Shown one piece after another: positions 15,430 through 42,569 of a stretch of DNA of 64,000 nt. The notes beneath the pieces are model-generated. The model was given only the letters and a program-made list of their open reading frames with translations. It was not told where the DNA came from and searched no databases. Where the stretch lies: positions 248,001 through 312,000 of the forward strand of contig JANQKC010000021.1 in NCBI GenBank assembly GCA_028281325.1, read 5' to 3'. How positions within the stretch are numbered: position 1 is the stretch's first letter; every line of letters begins with the position of its first letter. The translations under genes were made by a program, and so were the position numbers. The stretch is from Alphaproteobacteria bacterium (GTDB lineage Bacteria > Pseudomonadota > Alphaproteobacteria > UBA8366).

Positions 15430-15505
15430 TGGTGCCGCCTGCGTGACTTGAACACGCGACCCCCGCATTACGAATGCGATGCTCTACCAGCTGAGCTAAG
15501 GCGGC
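15430..15505 (-). tRNA. tRNA-Thr (anticodon CGU)
   Basis: The minus strand reads as a complete 76-nt cloverleaf. A perfect 7-bp acceptor stem pairs GCCGCCT with AGGCGGC. The D-arm contains AGCTCAGCTGGTAGAGC, the anticodon stem is TCGCA/TGCGG-like with loop TTCGTAA, and the T-arm is GCGTG-TTCAAGT-CACGC. A genomically encoded ACCA end is present. Anticodon CGT decodes ACG threonine. The gene sits between the ECF sigma gene and hemY. Confidence 0.96.
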
Positions 15506-36490: not shown

Positions 36491-38233
36491 GTGTCCGGCT
36501 TGAGCAACGGTTTTTCCAACAGTGTCTTTCGATCGCGCCTTTACAAGCTCGCCTTGATGGGCCGCGGGCCGACCACCTTGGCCGCCCTGCCGCCGGACAG
36601 CGAAGAGCGCGGCGTCGCCGTGGGCGATCCGGAGCGCGGCCGCGCGATCATGAATGGCGGCTTCACCATCGCGGGCGAGACCGTCGACTTCGATGCGGCT
36701 TGGCCGTCGCCCGGCATCGGCGACGCCGCCCAGGTCGCCGTGCACCGATTCGATTGGCTCGGCCATCTGGCAGCGCTCGACTCGGTCGACGCGCGCCGAT
36801 TCGCCGAACAATTGTTCGAGAGTTGGGACGAACGGTTCGGCACCTATCACGAGGTCAGTTGGCGGGCGGATATCCTCGCGGCGCGAATGGTGACCTGGCT
36901 GACCCATTACGCCGCCCTGTTCGAACCCGCCGAGGCGGCTTTCCGCATTCGCTTCCTCGACAGCATCGCGCGGCAACTCCGGCATCTGCGGCGGATCGCC
37001 AGCCAGGAAACCGCGCCGATGGAACGGATCGACGTGCTGAAGGGCCTGATCTACGGCGAAACCTGCGTGACTTCGGAGACCGAACGGGTCCGCCGGTCGC
37101 TGAGCCTGCTGGAGACGGAGCTGGACCGCCAGGTGCTGCCGGACGGCAGCCATGTTTCCCGCAGCCCGGGCCGGCAGCTCGCCACCTTGGAGGCCTTGAT
37201 CGATATCCGCGCCGTGCTGACCGCGGCCAGCCGCGAGGTGCCGGTGGCGCTGCGCAACGCCATCGACCGGATGGCGCCGATGACGCGGTTTCTGCGCCAC
37301 AGCGACGGCGCGCTGGCCTGTTTCAACGGCGGCGGCCGGCCCGATCCGACCCATGTCAGCCGGATCCTCCTGCGATCCGACGCGCAAGGCCGCGCGCCCG
37401 GCCGGGCGCCTTACGCCGGGTTCGAGCGGATCGACGCGAACGGCATGGTGCTGATCCTGGACGGCGGCGCACCGCCTGACGACGCCTATGACGAAGAGGC
37501 GCATGCCGGCCTGATGAGCTTCGAGTTGAGCGTCGGCGGTCAGCGCCTGATCGTGAACTGCGGCGCCGGTCCGGACACCGACGCCGGCTGGCGTCAGGCG
37601 CTGCGGACGACCGCGGCCCACTCGACCGTGATCGTCGACGACCGGAATTCCTGCGAGGTGACCGAAACCGGTTTAGGCCGGCGGCCGCGCGCCATCGATT
37701 GCGACCGCGGCGAGATCGACGGCAACATCTGGATCAGCAGCAGTCATGACGGATACGAAGGCCGCTACGGGCTGACGCACCGTCGGCGGCTCTATGTCGG
37801 CGACGCGGAGCCGGGGCTGCGCGGCGAGGATATCCTCGTCGGCGACACCGAACACCCCTTCGCCGTCCGCTTCCATCTCCATCCGTCCGTGCGCGCGGTG
37901 ATCGACGGCGACCGGACATCCGCCACCCTGGCCCTGCCGAACGGAGACCGTTGGCAGTTGCGCGCCGACCGACCGGTCGCCCTCGAGGACAGCGTGTATT
38001 GGGAAGACGCCACGGGCATCGCCCGCGCGACTCAGATCGTGCTGCGCGGTGAAACCCGCGGCGCCGCGACGCAGGTAAAATGGCGGCTGCGGCAGTTGGC
38101 GCAGGACGCCGGCAAGGAGGCGGAAACCGACCCGGGTTCCGAAACCCCGGGCCCGGCCGAGTCCGATGAAACAGCCCAGTATCCCGGCGGGCCCGCGCAG
38201 GCGGAAACCGGCGAGACCAAACCGTTCATATGA
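36491..38233 (+). CDS. Heparinase II/III family protein
   Basis: The 580-residue protein has an N-terminal alpha/alpha toroid (about 60-300, with WRADILAARMVTWLTHYA) and a C-terminal heparinase II/III-like beta domain (AGLMSFELSVGGQRLIVNCG, AAHSTVIVDDRNSCEV with a likely catalytic His). The disordered tail is rich in Glu, Pro and Thr. There is no signal peptide at the GTG start. In alphaproteobacteria such a gene commonly neighbours rsmB/rpe and purH; function is unproven, with polysaccharide lyase or cell-wall roles suggested. Its last codons overlap the first operator copy of the next locus. Confidence 0.88.
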   Translation: MSGLSNGFSNSVFRSRLYKLALMGRGPTTLAALPPDSEERGVAVGDPERGRAIMNGGFTIAGETVDFDAAWPSPGIGDAAQVAVHRFDWLGHLAALDSVDARRFAEQLFESWDERFGTYHEVSWRADILAARMVTWLTHYAALFEPAEAAFRIRFLDSIARQLRHLRRIASQETAPMERIDVLKGLIYGETCVTSETERVRRSLSLLETELDRQVLPDGSHVSRSPGRQLATLEALIDIRAVLTAASREVPVALRNAIDRMAPMTRFLRHSDGALACFNGGGRPDPTHVSRILLRSDAQGRAPGRAPYAGFERIDANGMVLILDGGAPPDDAYDEEAHAGLMSFELSVGGQRLIVNCGAGPDTDAGWRQALRTTAAHSTVIVDDRNSCEVTETGLGRRPRAIDCDRGEIDGNIWISSSHDGYEGRYGLTHRRRLYVGDAEPGLRGEDILVGDTEHPFAVRFHLHPSVRAVIDGDRTSATLALPNGDRWQLRADRPVALEDSVYWEDATGIARATQIVLRGETRGAATQVKWRLRQLAQDAGKEAETDPGSETPGPAESDETAQYPGGPAQAETGETKPFI

Positions 38234-38285
38234 TGAACGCCCTTGACGTTCACAGCATGAACGCGTTATTGTTCATCCTGTGAAC
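38224..38285 (+). promoter_or_regulatory. Three phased GTTCA-N5-TGAAC operators
   Basis: Perfect inverted repeats GTTCA-N5-TGAAC occur at 38224-38238 (spacer TATGA), 38248-38262 (CAGCA) and 38271-38285 (TCCTG). Their centres are 24 and 23 bp apart, about two helical turns, with the spacers unrelated. The array covers the presumed promoter of the MarR-EPS-type regulator, which is the obvious candidate binder by autoregulation. Confidence 0.75.
38243..38272 (+). promoter_or_regulatory. Candidate sigma-70 promoter of the polysaccharide locus
   Basis: TTGACG (38243-38248, five of six) is followed after 18 bp by TATTGT (38267-38272, four of six). The -35/spacer is overlapped by operator copy 2 and the -10 by copy 3, as expected for repression. 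Confidence 0.5.
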
Positions 38286-38350
38286 ACGCGTGACGGGCGC
38301 TCCTCGACGGGGCGTACGCGTATCGAGGGACGGTGCGGTGGGGGCCGCCG

Positions 38351-39004
38351 ATGGCCGATGGCAAGACCGAAAACGGCACGATGGACAGCGAGGCCGAAAT
38401 TACCCTCGGCCTGTTGAATGCGGTGCATGAAGACAGCGGTCTGACGCAACGGTCCGCCGCGCAGAACCTGGGCATCGCGCTCGGCCTCACCAACGCCTAT
38501 CTGAAACGCTGTATCCGCAAGGGCTATATCAAGGTTCGGCAGATTCCGTCCAACCGCTACGCCTATTACCTGACGCCGCAGGGCTTTGCGGAAAAGGCGC
38601 GGCTGACGACCGAATACCTTTCGCATTCCTTCACCTTCTTCCGCCAGGCGCGCGAACAATGCACCGAGGCGCTGACGAGCTGCGCCACCAGCGGCTGGCG
38701 CACCGTCGCCCTGGCCGGGTCCGGCGACCTGGCCGAGATCGCGGTGTTGTGCGGCCATAATCTGAACGGCGCGGTGACCCTGCAATGCGTGATCGACCCG
38801 GAGGACACCGCGGCCCAGTGCGCGGGCCTGCCGCTCGTGCACACGCCGCCGCCGCGCGGCACGATCGACGCGGTCATCCTGACCGACCTGCGCATGCCGC
38901 AACAGACGTTCGACGCGTTGTGCGGGCATTTTCCGGCCGACCGGATTCTCACCCCGCCCTTGCTGCAGGTCGTGCGGGCCCCTGCGCCGGACGCGGAGGC
39001 ATGA
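38351..39004 (+). CDS. MarR-EPS-type winged-helix regulator with C-terminal Rossmann-like domain
   Basis: The 217-residue protein begins at ATG 38351. Residues about 12-85 form a winged helix matching the EPS-associated MarR family: LTQRSAAQNLGIALGLTNAY, RCIRKGYIKVRQIP, then YYLTPQGFAEKARLT. Residues about 115-210 look like a small nucleotide- or sugar-binding Rossmann domain (TVALAGSGDLAEIAVLCG, IDAVILTDLRMP). The regulator overlaps the NusG-like gene by ATGA. The operator triplet upstream implies autoregulation. The C-terminal domain may sense a sugar nucleotide or phosphosugar, which is inference. Confidence 0.82.
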   Translation: MADGKTENGTMDSEAEITLGLLNAVHEDSGLTQRSAAQNLGIALGLTNAYLKRCIRKGYIKVRQIPSNRYAYYLTPQGFAEKARLTTEYLSHSFTFFRQAREQCTEALTSCATSGWRTVALAGSGDLAEIAVLCGHNLNGAVTLQCVIDPEDTAAQCAGLPLVHTPPPRGTIDAVILTDLRMPQQTFDALCGHFPADRILTPPLLQVVRAPAPDAEA

Positions 39005-39510
39005 CCATGCCCCGATGGCATGTGGTGCATACGCGGGCCGGCGCCGAGCTTCTGGCGCAAGGTCACCTGGACCGTCAGGGGTTCGAGACTTATCTGCCGC
39101 GCTACCTGAAGACCCGCCGCCACGCCCGGCGGACCACCCGGCTTCCGGCGCCGCTGTTCCCGCGCTACCTGTTCGTCCGGTTCGACCCCGACAGTGCGCC
39201 GTGGCGGTCGATCAACGGCACCCACGGCGTCAGCCATCTCGTCTGCATGGGCAACCGCCCGTCCGCCGTACCGCGCGGCGTCGTGGCCGACATCCGCGCC
39301 CGCGAGTCCGAGGAGGGATTCGTCGAGGTACACGACCCGATCGGGTTCGAGTCGGGCGAGGTGGTGCGGGTGACCGAAGGACCGTTGGCGCAGCAATCCG
39401 GCATCTTCCAGGGCAGCGACGACGACCGGCGCGTCGTCATCCTGCTGTCGATGTTGGGCCGCGAGATGAAGGTGACGCTGGACCGCGACGCCGTCGCCGC
39501 CTTCGCCTGA
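39001..39510 (+). CDS. NusG-like transcription elongation factor (RfaH/UpxY type)
   Basis: The 169-residue protein has an NGN domain (RWHVVHTRAGAELLAQ, FETYLPRY, APLFPRYLFVRFD, INGTHGVSHLVCM) and a C-terminal KOW domain (VVRVTEGPLAQQSGIFQG). As a specialised paralogue in a polysaccharide cluster it probably suppresses termination within long surface-glycan operons, as RfaH, LoaP or UpxY do. It starts within the regulator stop (ATGA), so the two are translationally coupled. The housekeeping nusG would be elsewhere, beside rpl genes. Confidence 0.88.
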   Translation: MTMPRWHVVHTRAGAELLAQGHLDRQGFETYLPRYLKTRRHARRTTRLPAPLFPRYLFVRFDPDSAPWRSINGTHGVSHLVCMGNRPSAVPRGVVADIRARESEEGFVEVHDPIGFESGEVVRVTEGPLAQQSGIFQGSDDDRRVVILLSMLGREMKVTLDRDAVAAFA

Positions 39511-39573: not shown

Positions 39574-40545
39574 ATGAGTTGGTTGATCCCCGCCTGCACC
39601 GCCGTCGTCATCGCCAGCGCCCTGGCCACCGGCGCGTTACGCGCGCAGTTGCAGCGGCGGTCGATCCTCGATCATCCGAACGAGCGCAGCAGCCACAAGC
39701 GCCCGACGCCGCGCGGCGGCGGACTGGCGGTCGTTCCGATCATCCTTTTCGCCTGGGCGCTGTACGCCGACAAGCCGGTCGCGGGCGCGTTGGCCGTCGT
39801 GATCCCGGGCGCGGCGGCGCTGGCGCTGCTGTCCTGGATCGACGATCTGCGGACGTTGCCGGCCTCGGTCCGGTTGATCGGGCAAGCCGCCGTGGTCGCA
39901 ACGGTGCTGGCCCTGCTCGACGGGTTCGGACTTGTTTTCCAGGGCCTGCTGCCGCCGCTGTTGGACAAGATCGCCGCAGCGGTCGCCTGGATCTGGTTCG
40001 TCAACCTGTTCAACTTCATGGACGGTATCGACGGCATTTCGGGGGTCGAGTCGATCGGCATCGGCGGCGGGCTCGCCTTGTTGGTGCTGGTCACGCCGGC
40101 GGCGGCGCCCGAGGCTTGGTACGGTGCCGCGATCGCGGCGGCGATGCTCGGATTCTTGATTTGGAACTGGCATCCGGCGCGGATTTTTCTAGGCGACGTC
40201 GGCAGCGTCCCGGTCGGCTTTTTGCTCGGCTTCCTGCTGCTGACCGCCGCCGCGGACGGGTATTGGGCGGCCGCCTTGATCCTGCCGCTGTACTACCTGG
40301 CCGATGCGACGATAACGCTGCTTCGGCGGGCGGCGCGCGGGGAAAAAGTGTGGCGCGCCCATCGCGAGCACTATTATCAAAAAGCAGTTCAGGGCGGTCT
40401 CAGCCATGCCGCCGTGTCCGGCGCCGTTTTCGCCGCGAACCTGCTGCTCGTGGCCTTGGCGCTGACCGCCGTGACCATGCCCGCCTTGTCGCTGGCCGGA
40501 GCCGGAACGGTGGTGCTGCTGCTGTTGTTCTGGATGCGATCCTGA
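39574..40545 (+). CDS. MraY/WecA-family polyprenyl-phosphate glycosyl-1-phosphate transferase
   Basis: The 323-residue integral membrane protein has about ten helices and the family signatures [45 protein letters not shown] (metal-binding Asp), [18 protein letters not shown] and the cytoplasmic HREHYYQKA loop. It would transfer a sugar-1-phosphate (commonly HexNAc-1-P) to undecaprenyl phosphate, starting O-antigen or exopolysaccharide assembly. It lies 63 bp after the NusG-like gene. The remainder of the pathway is not in this window. Confidence 0.92.
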
Positions 40546-40655: not shown

Positions 40656-42569
40656 ATGGGCCTACGGATCAAAATGGATCGAACGCGGATCGCGTTCGTG
40701 CATGACGTCATCATGGCGGCGGTGTCCTTTCCGCTGTCGCTCTACCTGCGCGTCGGCACGGTCGACAGTTACGAGATCGACCCGTATCTGATCCCCGGCA
40801 CGATCCTGTTCGCCGCGCTGGCCGCGCCGGTGTTTTGGTATGGCCGGTTGTATCGCGGCATCTGGCGGTACGCCTCGTTGGAAGACCTGGTCGCGATCAC
40901 CAAGGCGGTGACGCTGCTGATCCTGCTGTTCCTGCCGCTGTTGTTCGTCATCACGCGCCTGGAATACTTCCCGCGTTCCGCGCCCTTCATCAACTGGTTC
41001 GTGCTGATGACGCTGCTCGGCGGCCCGCGCTTCCTCTACCGGCTGTTCAAGGACCGGCGGATGGAAAACGTGCTGGCGCGATCCGACCATCTGCGGGTGC
41101 CGGTGCTGCTGATCGGCGCGAACGACGCGGCCGAACTGTTCATCCGCCAGCAGGCCCGCGACCGCGACGCCCCCTATAAAGTACTCGGCGTCATCGACGA
41201 AAAAGGCGGTCGCGTCGGCCGCTCGATCCATGGCGTTCAAGTTCTCGGCGGGCTGAAAGACCTGGAACGGATCGTGCGCAGCCTCCACGATCCGCCGGCG
41301 CAGCGGCTCGTGCTCACCCATCACCGGTTCGAGGGCGCGACGGTGCGGAACATCCTGGCGCAGGCGGAGAAACTGGGGCTCAGCATGGCGCGGCTGCCGC
41401 GCCTCGCCGACCTGAAATCCGGCATCGAGGACCAGGACCGCATCGAGACCCAGCCGATCGCCGTCGAGGACCTGCTCGGCCGGCCGCAGGCGGTGCTCGA
41501 CCGGGACGCGATGCGGGCGCTGATCGCCGACCGCAAGGTTCTGGTGACCGGCGCGGGCGGCACGATCGGCGGCGAATTGGTGCGCCAGATCGCCGATTTC
41601 GACCCGGCGACGATCATCCTGTTCGACGCGTCTGAATACAATCTTTACGAAATTGACGGCGAGCTTGCCGAACGCCATAGCGGCCTGCCGCGTCATCCGG
41701 TGCTGGGCGACGTGCGCGACCGGACCCGGCTCGACCAGACCTTCGCGCAGTATGCGCCGGACCTCGTCTTCCACGCCGCCGCGCTGAAACACGTCCCGAT
41801 GGTCGAGGCCAACCCGCTCGAAGGGGTTCTGACCAACACGATCGGCAGCCGCAACGTGGCCGAGGCTTGCCGGTCGGCGAATGTCCGGCTGATGGTGCAG
41901 ATTTCCACCGACAAGGCGGTCAACCCGACCAACGTGATGGGCGCGACCAAGCGGCTGGGCGAAAGCTACGGCCAGGCGCTCGACCTGGAGACCCGGGAGA
42001 ACGGCGGCACCCGTTTCGTGACCGTTCGCTTCGGCAACGTCCTGGGGTCGACCGGATCGGTGGTGCCGCTGTTCCAACGCCAGATCGCGCAAGGCGGGCC
42101 GGTCACGGTGACCGATCCGGACGTGACGCGCTATTTCATGTCGGTCCGCGAAGCCGTCGAACTGGTGCTGCAGGCCTCCGCCATCGGCGAGTCGGACGGC
42201 GCCGCCTGCGGCAAGATCTTCGAGTTGGAAATGGGCGAGCCGGTGCGTATCGTCGACCTGGCGCATCAGATGATCCGGTTGGCCGGATTCACCCCGGACA
42301 AGGATATCGAGGTGCGGTTCATCGGCCTGCGCCCCGGCGAGAAGTTGCAGGAAGAGCTGCTGCACGCCTCCGAGGCGGTGGTGCCGACCACCCATCCGAA
42401 CCTGTGCCTGGCCAATCCGCGCACCGCGGACCTGCCGTTGCTGCAGCGGGCGCTCGGCGAGCTGGAAGAGGCCGCCCGGGCCCGGCGCGAGGACCAGGTG
42501 ATGGCGATGATTCAACGGCTCGTTCCCGAATTCGGCAGCGAGGCGGCACCCGCCGCCCTCTCGCGATGA
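40656..42569 (+). CDS. FlaA1/CapD-type nucleotide-sugar 4,6-dehydratase/epimerase
   Basis: The 637-residue protein has four N-terminal membrane helices (about 11-125), a CoA-binding-like Rossmann domain (VPVLLIGAND at 148-157) and an extended-SDR domain. The latter has TGAGGTIG (298-305), HAAALKHVPMVEANP, STDKAVNPTNVMGATKR (the Met-xxx-Lys variant typical of this group) and VRFGNVLGSTGSVVPLF. The group inverts or dehydrates UDP-HexNAc for surface glycan synthesis. An alternative start is ATG 40674 (MDRTR). It ends the inserted locus; purH follows after 72 bp. Confidence 0.93.
   Translation: MGLRIKMDRTRIAFVHDVIMAAVSFPLSLYLRVGTVDSYEIDPYLIPGTILFAALAAPVFWYGRLYRGIWRYASLEDLVAITKAVTLLILLFLPLLFVITRLEYFPRSAPFINWFVLMTLLGGPRFLYRLFKDRRMENVLARSDHLRVPVLLIGANDAAELFIRQQARDRDAPYKVLGVIDEKGGRVGRSIHGVQVLGGLKDLERIVRSLHDPPAQRLVLTHHRFEGATVRNILAQAEKLGLSMARLPRLADLKSGIEDQDRIETQPIAVEDLLGRPQAVLDRDAMRALIADRKVLVTGAGGTIGGELVRQIADFDPATIILFDASEYNLYEIDGELAERHSGLPRHPVLGDVRDRTRLDQTFAQYAPDLVFHAAALKHVPMVEANPLEGVLTNTIGSRNVAEACRSANVRLMVQISTDKAVNPTNVMGATKRLGESYGQALDLETRENGGTRFVTVRFGNVLGSTGSVVPLFQRQIAQGGPVTVTDPDVTRYFMSVREAVELVLQASAIGESDGAACGKIFELEMGEPVRIVDLAHQMIRLAGFTPDKDIEVRFIGLRPGEKLQEELLHASEAVVPTTHPNLCLANPRTADLPLLQRALGELEEAARARREDQVMAMIQRLVPEFGSEAAPAALSR

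Follow-up and report, generated by a model that had tools for sequence, protein, structure and literature searches.

A conserved palindrome as the putative operator of a MarR_EPS-like regulator encoded with an RfaH-like antiterminator and linked to glycan operons in Alphaproteobacteria

Results

Genes and putative operators at the locus

The window (the whole 64-kb stretch of DNA analysed, to which the positions below refer) harbored the following genes and elements around the inverted repeats under study:

36491-38233, plus strand: heparinase II/III-family gene, the 3' end of which shares bases with operator 1
38224-38238, no strand assigned: operator 1, GTTCATATGATGAAC, within which the upstream heparinase gene has its stop codon; supported by the orthologues
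38243-38248, plus strand: -35 element TTGACG, its final G common to operator 2; TTGAC lies directly against an operator in 85 of 97 orthologous promoters
38248-38262, no strand assigned: operator 2 (core operator), GTTCACAGCATGAAC, occupying the -35/-10 spacer, as in 85 of 97 orthologous promoters
38267-38272, plus strand: -10 element TATTGT, after an 18-bp spacer; TA kept at that distance in 81 of 85 promoters, without having been selected for
38271-38285, no strand assigned: operator 3, GTTCATCCTGTGAAC, covering the final two bases of the -10 element and the expected start site
38351-39004, plus strand: long-form MarR_EPS-like regulator gene (winged helix, long helix, Rossmann-like domain); a longer form from a GTG start at 38333 is possible
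39001-39510, plus strand: gene for an RfaH-like NusG paralogue, in ATGA overlap with the regulator stop codon; alternative start at 39007
39574-40545, plus strand: WecA-like polyprenyl-phosphate glycosyl-1-phosphate transferase gene (NCBIfam/Pfam matches)
40656-42569, plus strand: CapD/PseB-like nucleotide-sugar dehydratase gene with an N-terminal CoA_binding_3-like region (NCBIfam/Pfam matches)

The first-pass annotation of this DNA had described three perfect GTTCA-N5-TGAAC palindromes over a candidate promoter, and this description was confirmed in its essentials: the palindromes start at 38224, 38248 and 38271, with centres at 38231, 38255 and 38278 (24 and 23 bp apart), the promoter TTGACG-N18-TATTGT begins at 38243 (-35) and 38267 (-10), its 18-bp spacer being made up of the remainder of operator 2 plus four bases, and the heparinase stop codon (TGA, 38231-38233) falls within the first copy. 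The repeats were rightly called identical, but their spacers are not wholly unrelated: all four sites of the genome read GTTCA-YnnnR-TGAAC, and Y and R at the spacer ends were mildly preferred across 85 orthologous sites. Only these three copies were present in the window, even with one mismatch permitted, and the 5.12-Mb genome contained four exact copies at two loci (reversed-pattern control, 1). Sixteen one-mismatch sites were detected elsewhere in the genome, and requiring a promoter context left only the two known promoters; full promoter-operator units were restricted to the regulator promoter and to a second unit on contig C20 (C20:222786-222815). Rfam matched a single feature of the window, a tRNA gene (15433-15505, minus strand).

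In 82 of 89 loci, the RfaH-like NusG paralogue was encoded by the gene following that of the regulator. A cultured relative, Hwanghaeella grinnelliae (L030), has this layout too. The WecA-like gene is probably carried on the regulator transcript, judging from its orientation and the 63-nt gap, and the CapD/PseB-like gene probably is as well.

The regulator protein

The regulator scored 63.2 bits against TIGR04176 (MarR_EPS), whose curated cut-off is 88 bits (65.1 bits in the genome search), and its winged helix is homologous to that of the model (E 1.9e-17 over residues 22-105). With a score below the cut-off, the protein is a long-form MarR_EPS relative and not a TIGR04176 equivalog. The association with extracellular polysaccharide that goes with TIGR04176 was also found here: WecA- and CapD-like genes downstream, and glycan operons with the same operator. 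Pfam HTH_24 was matched with 39.7 bits (threshold 21.9), whereas MarR_2 reached 15.6 bits (gathering score 27). The Pfam search gave no match for the C-terminal part, and a sequence profile search of the PDB retrieved no natural relatives of the regulator.

A structure model (m3b6c67901a8a, built from 55 orthologues, pLDDT 82) predicted a helix of 38 residues between a winged helix and a Rossmann-like domain. In alignments of the model, the Rossmann-like domain was superimposed on that of Rex repressors with a Z of 10.4 (rmsd 2.5 over 97 residues) and, nearly as well, on that of WbaP, a glycosyl-phosphate transferase (Z 9.7); the winged helix was aligned with Lrp/AsnC-type domains (Z 8.6). The GxGxxG loop of the Rossmann-like domain was not intact, no Rex model was present among the NCBIfam/Pfam matches, and no Rex chain among those of the PDB sequence profile search. 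Two genomes encoded two copies of the regulator each: G375 (contigs C7 and C50) and G040 (C24 and C34); both copies in G375 had their own TTGAC-operator promoter, and one of them held a stop codon.

Conservation upstream of orthologous regulators

A search for GTTCA-Nk-TGAAC, with k from 0 to 14, was made in the upstream regions of 97 non-redundant orthologues. At k=5, perfect sites were present in 89 of the 97 regions and sites with at most one mismatch in all of them (eight with one mismatch), while no perfect site was found at any other k in this range, nor with the reversed pattern, and direct GTTCA repeats were essentially absent. Conservation of the repeats ahead of orthologous regulators, on which the first-pass reading depended, thus extended to the whole set. 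TTGAC abutted the operator in 85 promoters and not in the other 12. In these 85, which were picked by this abutment alone (the -10 element was not a criterion), the operator filled the 18-bp spacer before TAnnnT, and TA was found at the fixed distance in 81. Across the aligned promoters, the bases of the two arms (ten in all) and of the promoter elements were the only constant ones, and the five spacer positions were variable.

The number of operators per promoter varied: one in 25, two in 58 and three in 14 of the 97 promoters. Spacing between operators was mostly 21-25 bp, a second copy at +22 to +24 being the commonest arrangement (compare operator 3); other promoters had spacings of 27-28 bp, usually with the extra copy upstream, and a few of 34-48 bp. 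Cooperative binding on one face of the DNA, suggested earlier from the regularity of the three copies, was rejected: 24 and 23 bp correspond to about 2.2-2.3 helical turns, so that the copies face differently; the orthologous spacings (21-25, 27-28 and a few of 34-48 bp) represent many phases, and 25 of the 97 promoters have a single operator. With spacings of both 21-25 and 27-28 bp, a fixed helical face is therefore not conserved.

Some sites had other positions. A perfect GTTCA-N5-TGAAC lay within the regulator coding sequence at +247 from the winged-helix anchor in loci L022, L024 and L047, and may represent a coding constraint or an internal operator. Locus L009 carried two extra perfect operators in tandem (1739-1777), 24 bp apart and about 240 bp upstream of the sites of the regulator promoter. 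The sites of loci L043 and L069 fall within reading frames.

Distribution in Alphaproteobacteria

The class-wide scan for TTGACGTTCA-N5-TGAAC covered 385 alphaproteobacterial genomes and detected 45 sites in 38 of them, with one hit for the reversed pattern. The regulator was encoded in 77 of the 385 genomes, including all 38 with sites, and none of the 308 genomes lacking the regulator had a site (Fisher p 2.7e-31). Thirty-seven of the 45 sites were located ahead of regulator genes, seven ahead of glycan genes and one at a contig end.

Short MarR_EPS proteins and PAPS-synthase fusions

The short MarR_EPS proteins lack the Rossmann-like domain and are mostly found outside Alphaproteobacteria. 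Of 18 complete cases, 15 carried a perfect N5 site at the start of the gene. No motif was found upstream of three short alphaproteobacterial members (L164, L168 and L171, families f16 and f149), L164 having at most a weak N4-like site. In genomes of family f26 (L174-L184), the MarR_EPS winged helix was fused N-terminally to a bifunctional ATP sulfurylase/APS kinase (PAPS synthase; e.g. L175, 1468-3288), with the fusion domains verified in two members. All 11 fusion genes were immediately preceded by GTTCA-N4-TGAAC and none by the N5 site. Some of them had a second N4 copy about 48 bp away. The half-sites are constant and the distance between them shifts by 1 bp with the protein architecture, a pattern difficult to account for if these proteins did not bind the sites. 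The fusion is a candidate autoregulating trigger enzyme.

Glycan operons with the same operator

Whether the motif also lies upstream of glycan operons had been put forward as a check, and such sites were found both in the same genome and in others. The fourth site of the genome is TTGACGTTCATGGTGTGAACGTGCTAGAGA, read leftward, in a promoter-operator unit like that of the regulator (C20:222786-222815), which heads a leftward glycan cluster of about 22 kb, of pseudaminic type. Two of its products scored above curated cut-offs (WecB, 238.7 vs. 210.2; PseC, 430.8 vs. 423.5), and the cluster also included genes for a DegT aminotransferase, a cupin, an FnlA/PseB-like dehydratase, an MsbA/PglK-like flippase, and PseG-like and NeuB/PseI-like proteins. 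In other genomes, operator-bearing promoters other than those of the regulator preceded PseB, PseC, NeuB, NeuC, NeuA and flippase-type genes (identified by Pfam in three cases and judged from the sequences in the rest).

The leaders of these operons shared a further element. Nine leaders following TTGAC-type operators at glycan operons were compared for common 8-mers, with no element specified beforehand, and GCGGTAGC was the only 8-mer family common to most of them (8 of 9; expectation 0.1). With five added sites, kGCGGTAGC was present in 13 of 14 operator-bearing glycan leaders, compared with 1 of 97 regulator leaders, though the direction in which the added sites were read had been set partly in the light of the ops-like element, which makes 8 of 9 the cleaner figure; the exception was an operon of genome G321. 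All 13 elements came directly after a predicted RNA hairpin (mean z -3.0), the stem sequences being quite different. The copy in the genome studied was as follows, and the remaining hairpin-kGCGGTAGC leaders were those of L186, L188, L191, L192, L194, L201, L048, L056, L075, L076, L081 and L196:

G000:C20:222738-222748, minus strand: hairpin-kGCGGTAGC in the glycan leader

This layout resembles that of JUMPstart leaders, in which a hairpin is followed by ops. Rfam JUMPstart gave no match at the gathering score in ten glycan-operon loci, and none at E <=5 in two leaders. GCGGTAGC forms the core of ops, the element at which RfaH is recruited (ops12, GGCGGTAGCGTG; Zuber 2018, PMC5995543), and the copy in the genome studied matched 11 of the 12 bases of E. 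coli ops12. GCGGTAGCnTG occurred five times in this genome, and only the glycan-leader copy was in a hairpin-type leader; the four others, inside or away from glycan leaders, were discarded. As an 11-mer, GCGGTAGCNTG was strongly under-represented (5 copies in 5.1 Mb, against 56 for the reversed control), possibly reflecting avoidance.

The RfaH-like protein was aligned to E. coli RfaH with an E of 4e-21, and scored 124.8 bits against TIGR01955 (RfaH), below the curated cut-off of 144.5. Among the ops-binding side chains of E. coli RfaH, H20, R23 and Q24 were kept, while K10 was replaced by R and R73 by H, so that two of the four ops-contacting residues K10, H20, R23 and R73 differ.

Discussion

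The central proposal of the first-pass annotation, that the palindromes are putative operators of the adjacent regulator and define its recognition motif, was supported by all 97 orthologues and by the glycan operons. We consider it highly probable, from the sequence patterns described, that GTTCA-N5-TGAAC is the operator of an autorepressor gating both its own antiterminator operon and the glycan operons which that antiterminator serves. A regulator dimer, probably joined by the long helix, would read one GTTCA half-site with each winged helix. With the core operator in the -35/-10 spacer and extra copies over -10/+1 or just upstream, bound dimers would most likely block RNA polymerase. The same promoter-operator unit ahead of nonulosonic/pseudaminic-acid-type glycan clusters would allow the regulator to gate initiation there too, and the RfaH-like antiterminator, loaded at the hairpin-adjacent ops-like element, would let RNA polymerase complete the long glycan cluster. 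Binding would depend on a ligand, possibly a dinucleotide or nucleotide sugar, of the C-terminal Rossmann-like domain, and release of the regulator by this ligand would lead to the antiterminator and its target transcripts being made together.

The main rival concerns the sign of regulation. MerR-type operators are placed between the -35 and -10 elements, in promoters with spacers of 19-20 bp, and the palindrome was found exactly between these elements in 85 of the 97 promoters; the regulator might then act at the same operators as a MerR-style activator that distorts the spacer and so brings -35 and -10 into register, or as a ligand-switched repressor/activator, to which the Rossmann-like domain would lend itself. 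We regard this as unlikely: at 18 bp the spacer is near the optimum and shorter than the 19-20 bp of MerR promoters, the second and third copies cover -10/+1 in many promoters, where occlusion fits better, and the fold combines a winged helix with a Rossmann-like domain and is not that of MerR. We infer repression rather than activation because of this near-optimal spacer and of the copies over -10/+1.

A second objection, to which we give a similarly small chance, is directed at the leaders: GCGGTAGC might be an inherited or constrained sequence (a pause site, a translation signal or the target of another NusG paralogue) and not a site of recruitment for the RfaH-like protein. The replacement of the RfaH contacts K10 and R73 by R and H, the lack of an Rfam JUMPstart match and the operator-bearing glycan operon without the element (G321) would fit such an origin. 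However, the core emerged unprompted in 8 of 9 leaders, it always stands directly after a hairpin, it is nearly absent from the regulator leaders (1 of 97) and from the intergenic remainder of the genome, and the copy in this genome is identical at 11 of 12 positions to E. coli ops12, GGCGGTAGCGTG (PMC5995543). Recruitment of the RfaH-like protein at these leaders is thus the reading favored here.

Binding of the palindromes by another protein (a LexA-type or other global regulator), with the regulator adjacent by accident, is very improbable: GTTC half-sites also occur in the alphaproteobacterial LexA box (GTTC-N7-GTTC), but the repeats described here are inverted, direct GTTCA repeats being essentially absent from the promoters, the genome has four sites at two loci only, the regulator is encoded in 38 of 38 genomes with sites and the site is found in 0 of 308 genomes without it, and the spacer length follows the architecture of the adjacent protein.

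Taken together as a repressor and an antiterminator, the two proteins suggest, with fair though lesser confidence than for the operator itself, a two-tier circuit that is widespread in Alphaproteobacteria and previously undescribed: an autorepressor with winged-helix and Rossmann domains that senses a ligand would share one operon with an RfaH-type antiterminator, and the two would act on the same distant glycan operons, the former at GTTCA-N5-TGAAC within the promoter and the latter at the hairpin-ops element of the leader, with initiation and processivity set by one signal, and the operator would be ancestral to MarR_EPS proteins across Proteobacteria, its spacer shifted by 1 bp in the PAPS-synthase fusions.

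Autorepressor palindromes, MarR_EPS proteins, RfaH and ops are all of known kinds. A search of open-licence papers retrieved no description of the operator or its conservation across the family, of the regulon, or of operator and ops occurring together; the palindrome provides a concrete putative operator for a MarR_EPS-type family, for which none was described in that literature. Transcription of surface-sugar genes appears to be governed from one small operon at both its start and its completion, and the coupling of a promoter operator to an ops element within a single regulon can be tested directly. The 20-base pattern predicts glycan operons in many uncultured Alphaproteobacteria, and the 1-bp change in operator spacing that accompanies the protein fusion is a natural experiment on how winged-helix dimers set the half-site distance. 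The means by which RfaH-like proteins recognize their targets outside enterobacteria is listed as unknown by Wang et al. 2020 (PMC7593976), and the leaders described here suggest a way in which they may do so.

Comparison with known systems

Members of the MarR_EPS family (TIGR04176) in other classes share the upstream GTTCA-N5-TGAAC (15 of 18), and several adjoin glycan genes; the regulator described here has in addition a long helix and a Rossmann-like domain, and an RfaH-like gene is encoded with it. Rex redox-sensing repressors likewise consist of a winged helix followed by a Rossmann domain, but there is no sequence match to them, the winged helix of the regulator is nearer to Lrp/AsnC, a long helix separates the domains and the GxGxxG motif is broken.

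The regulator-linked RfaH-like family is presumably cluster CL4 of the survey by Wang et al. In that survey, 18% of rfaH genes are reported to belong to alphaproteobacteria, and an HTH transcriptional regulator to be found next to CL4 (Wang et al. 2020, PMC7593976); the operator, the ops elements at the targets and the regulon are absent from the passages on CL4.

With the E. coli RfaH/ops (JUMPstart) system, the circuit proposed here shares an RfaH-like NusG paralogue and a hairpin with kGCGGTAGC in the leaders of long surface-polysaccharide operons. It differs in the replacement of R73 by H, in a score below the equivalog cut-off and in leaders without an Rfam JUMPstart match, and, in contrast to E. 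coli, the antiterminator gene lies in the operon of the regulator, under an operator that is also found at the target promoters.
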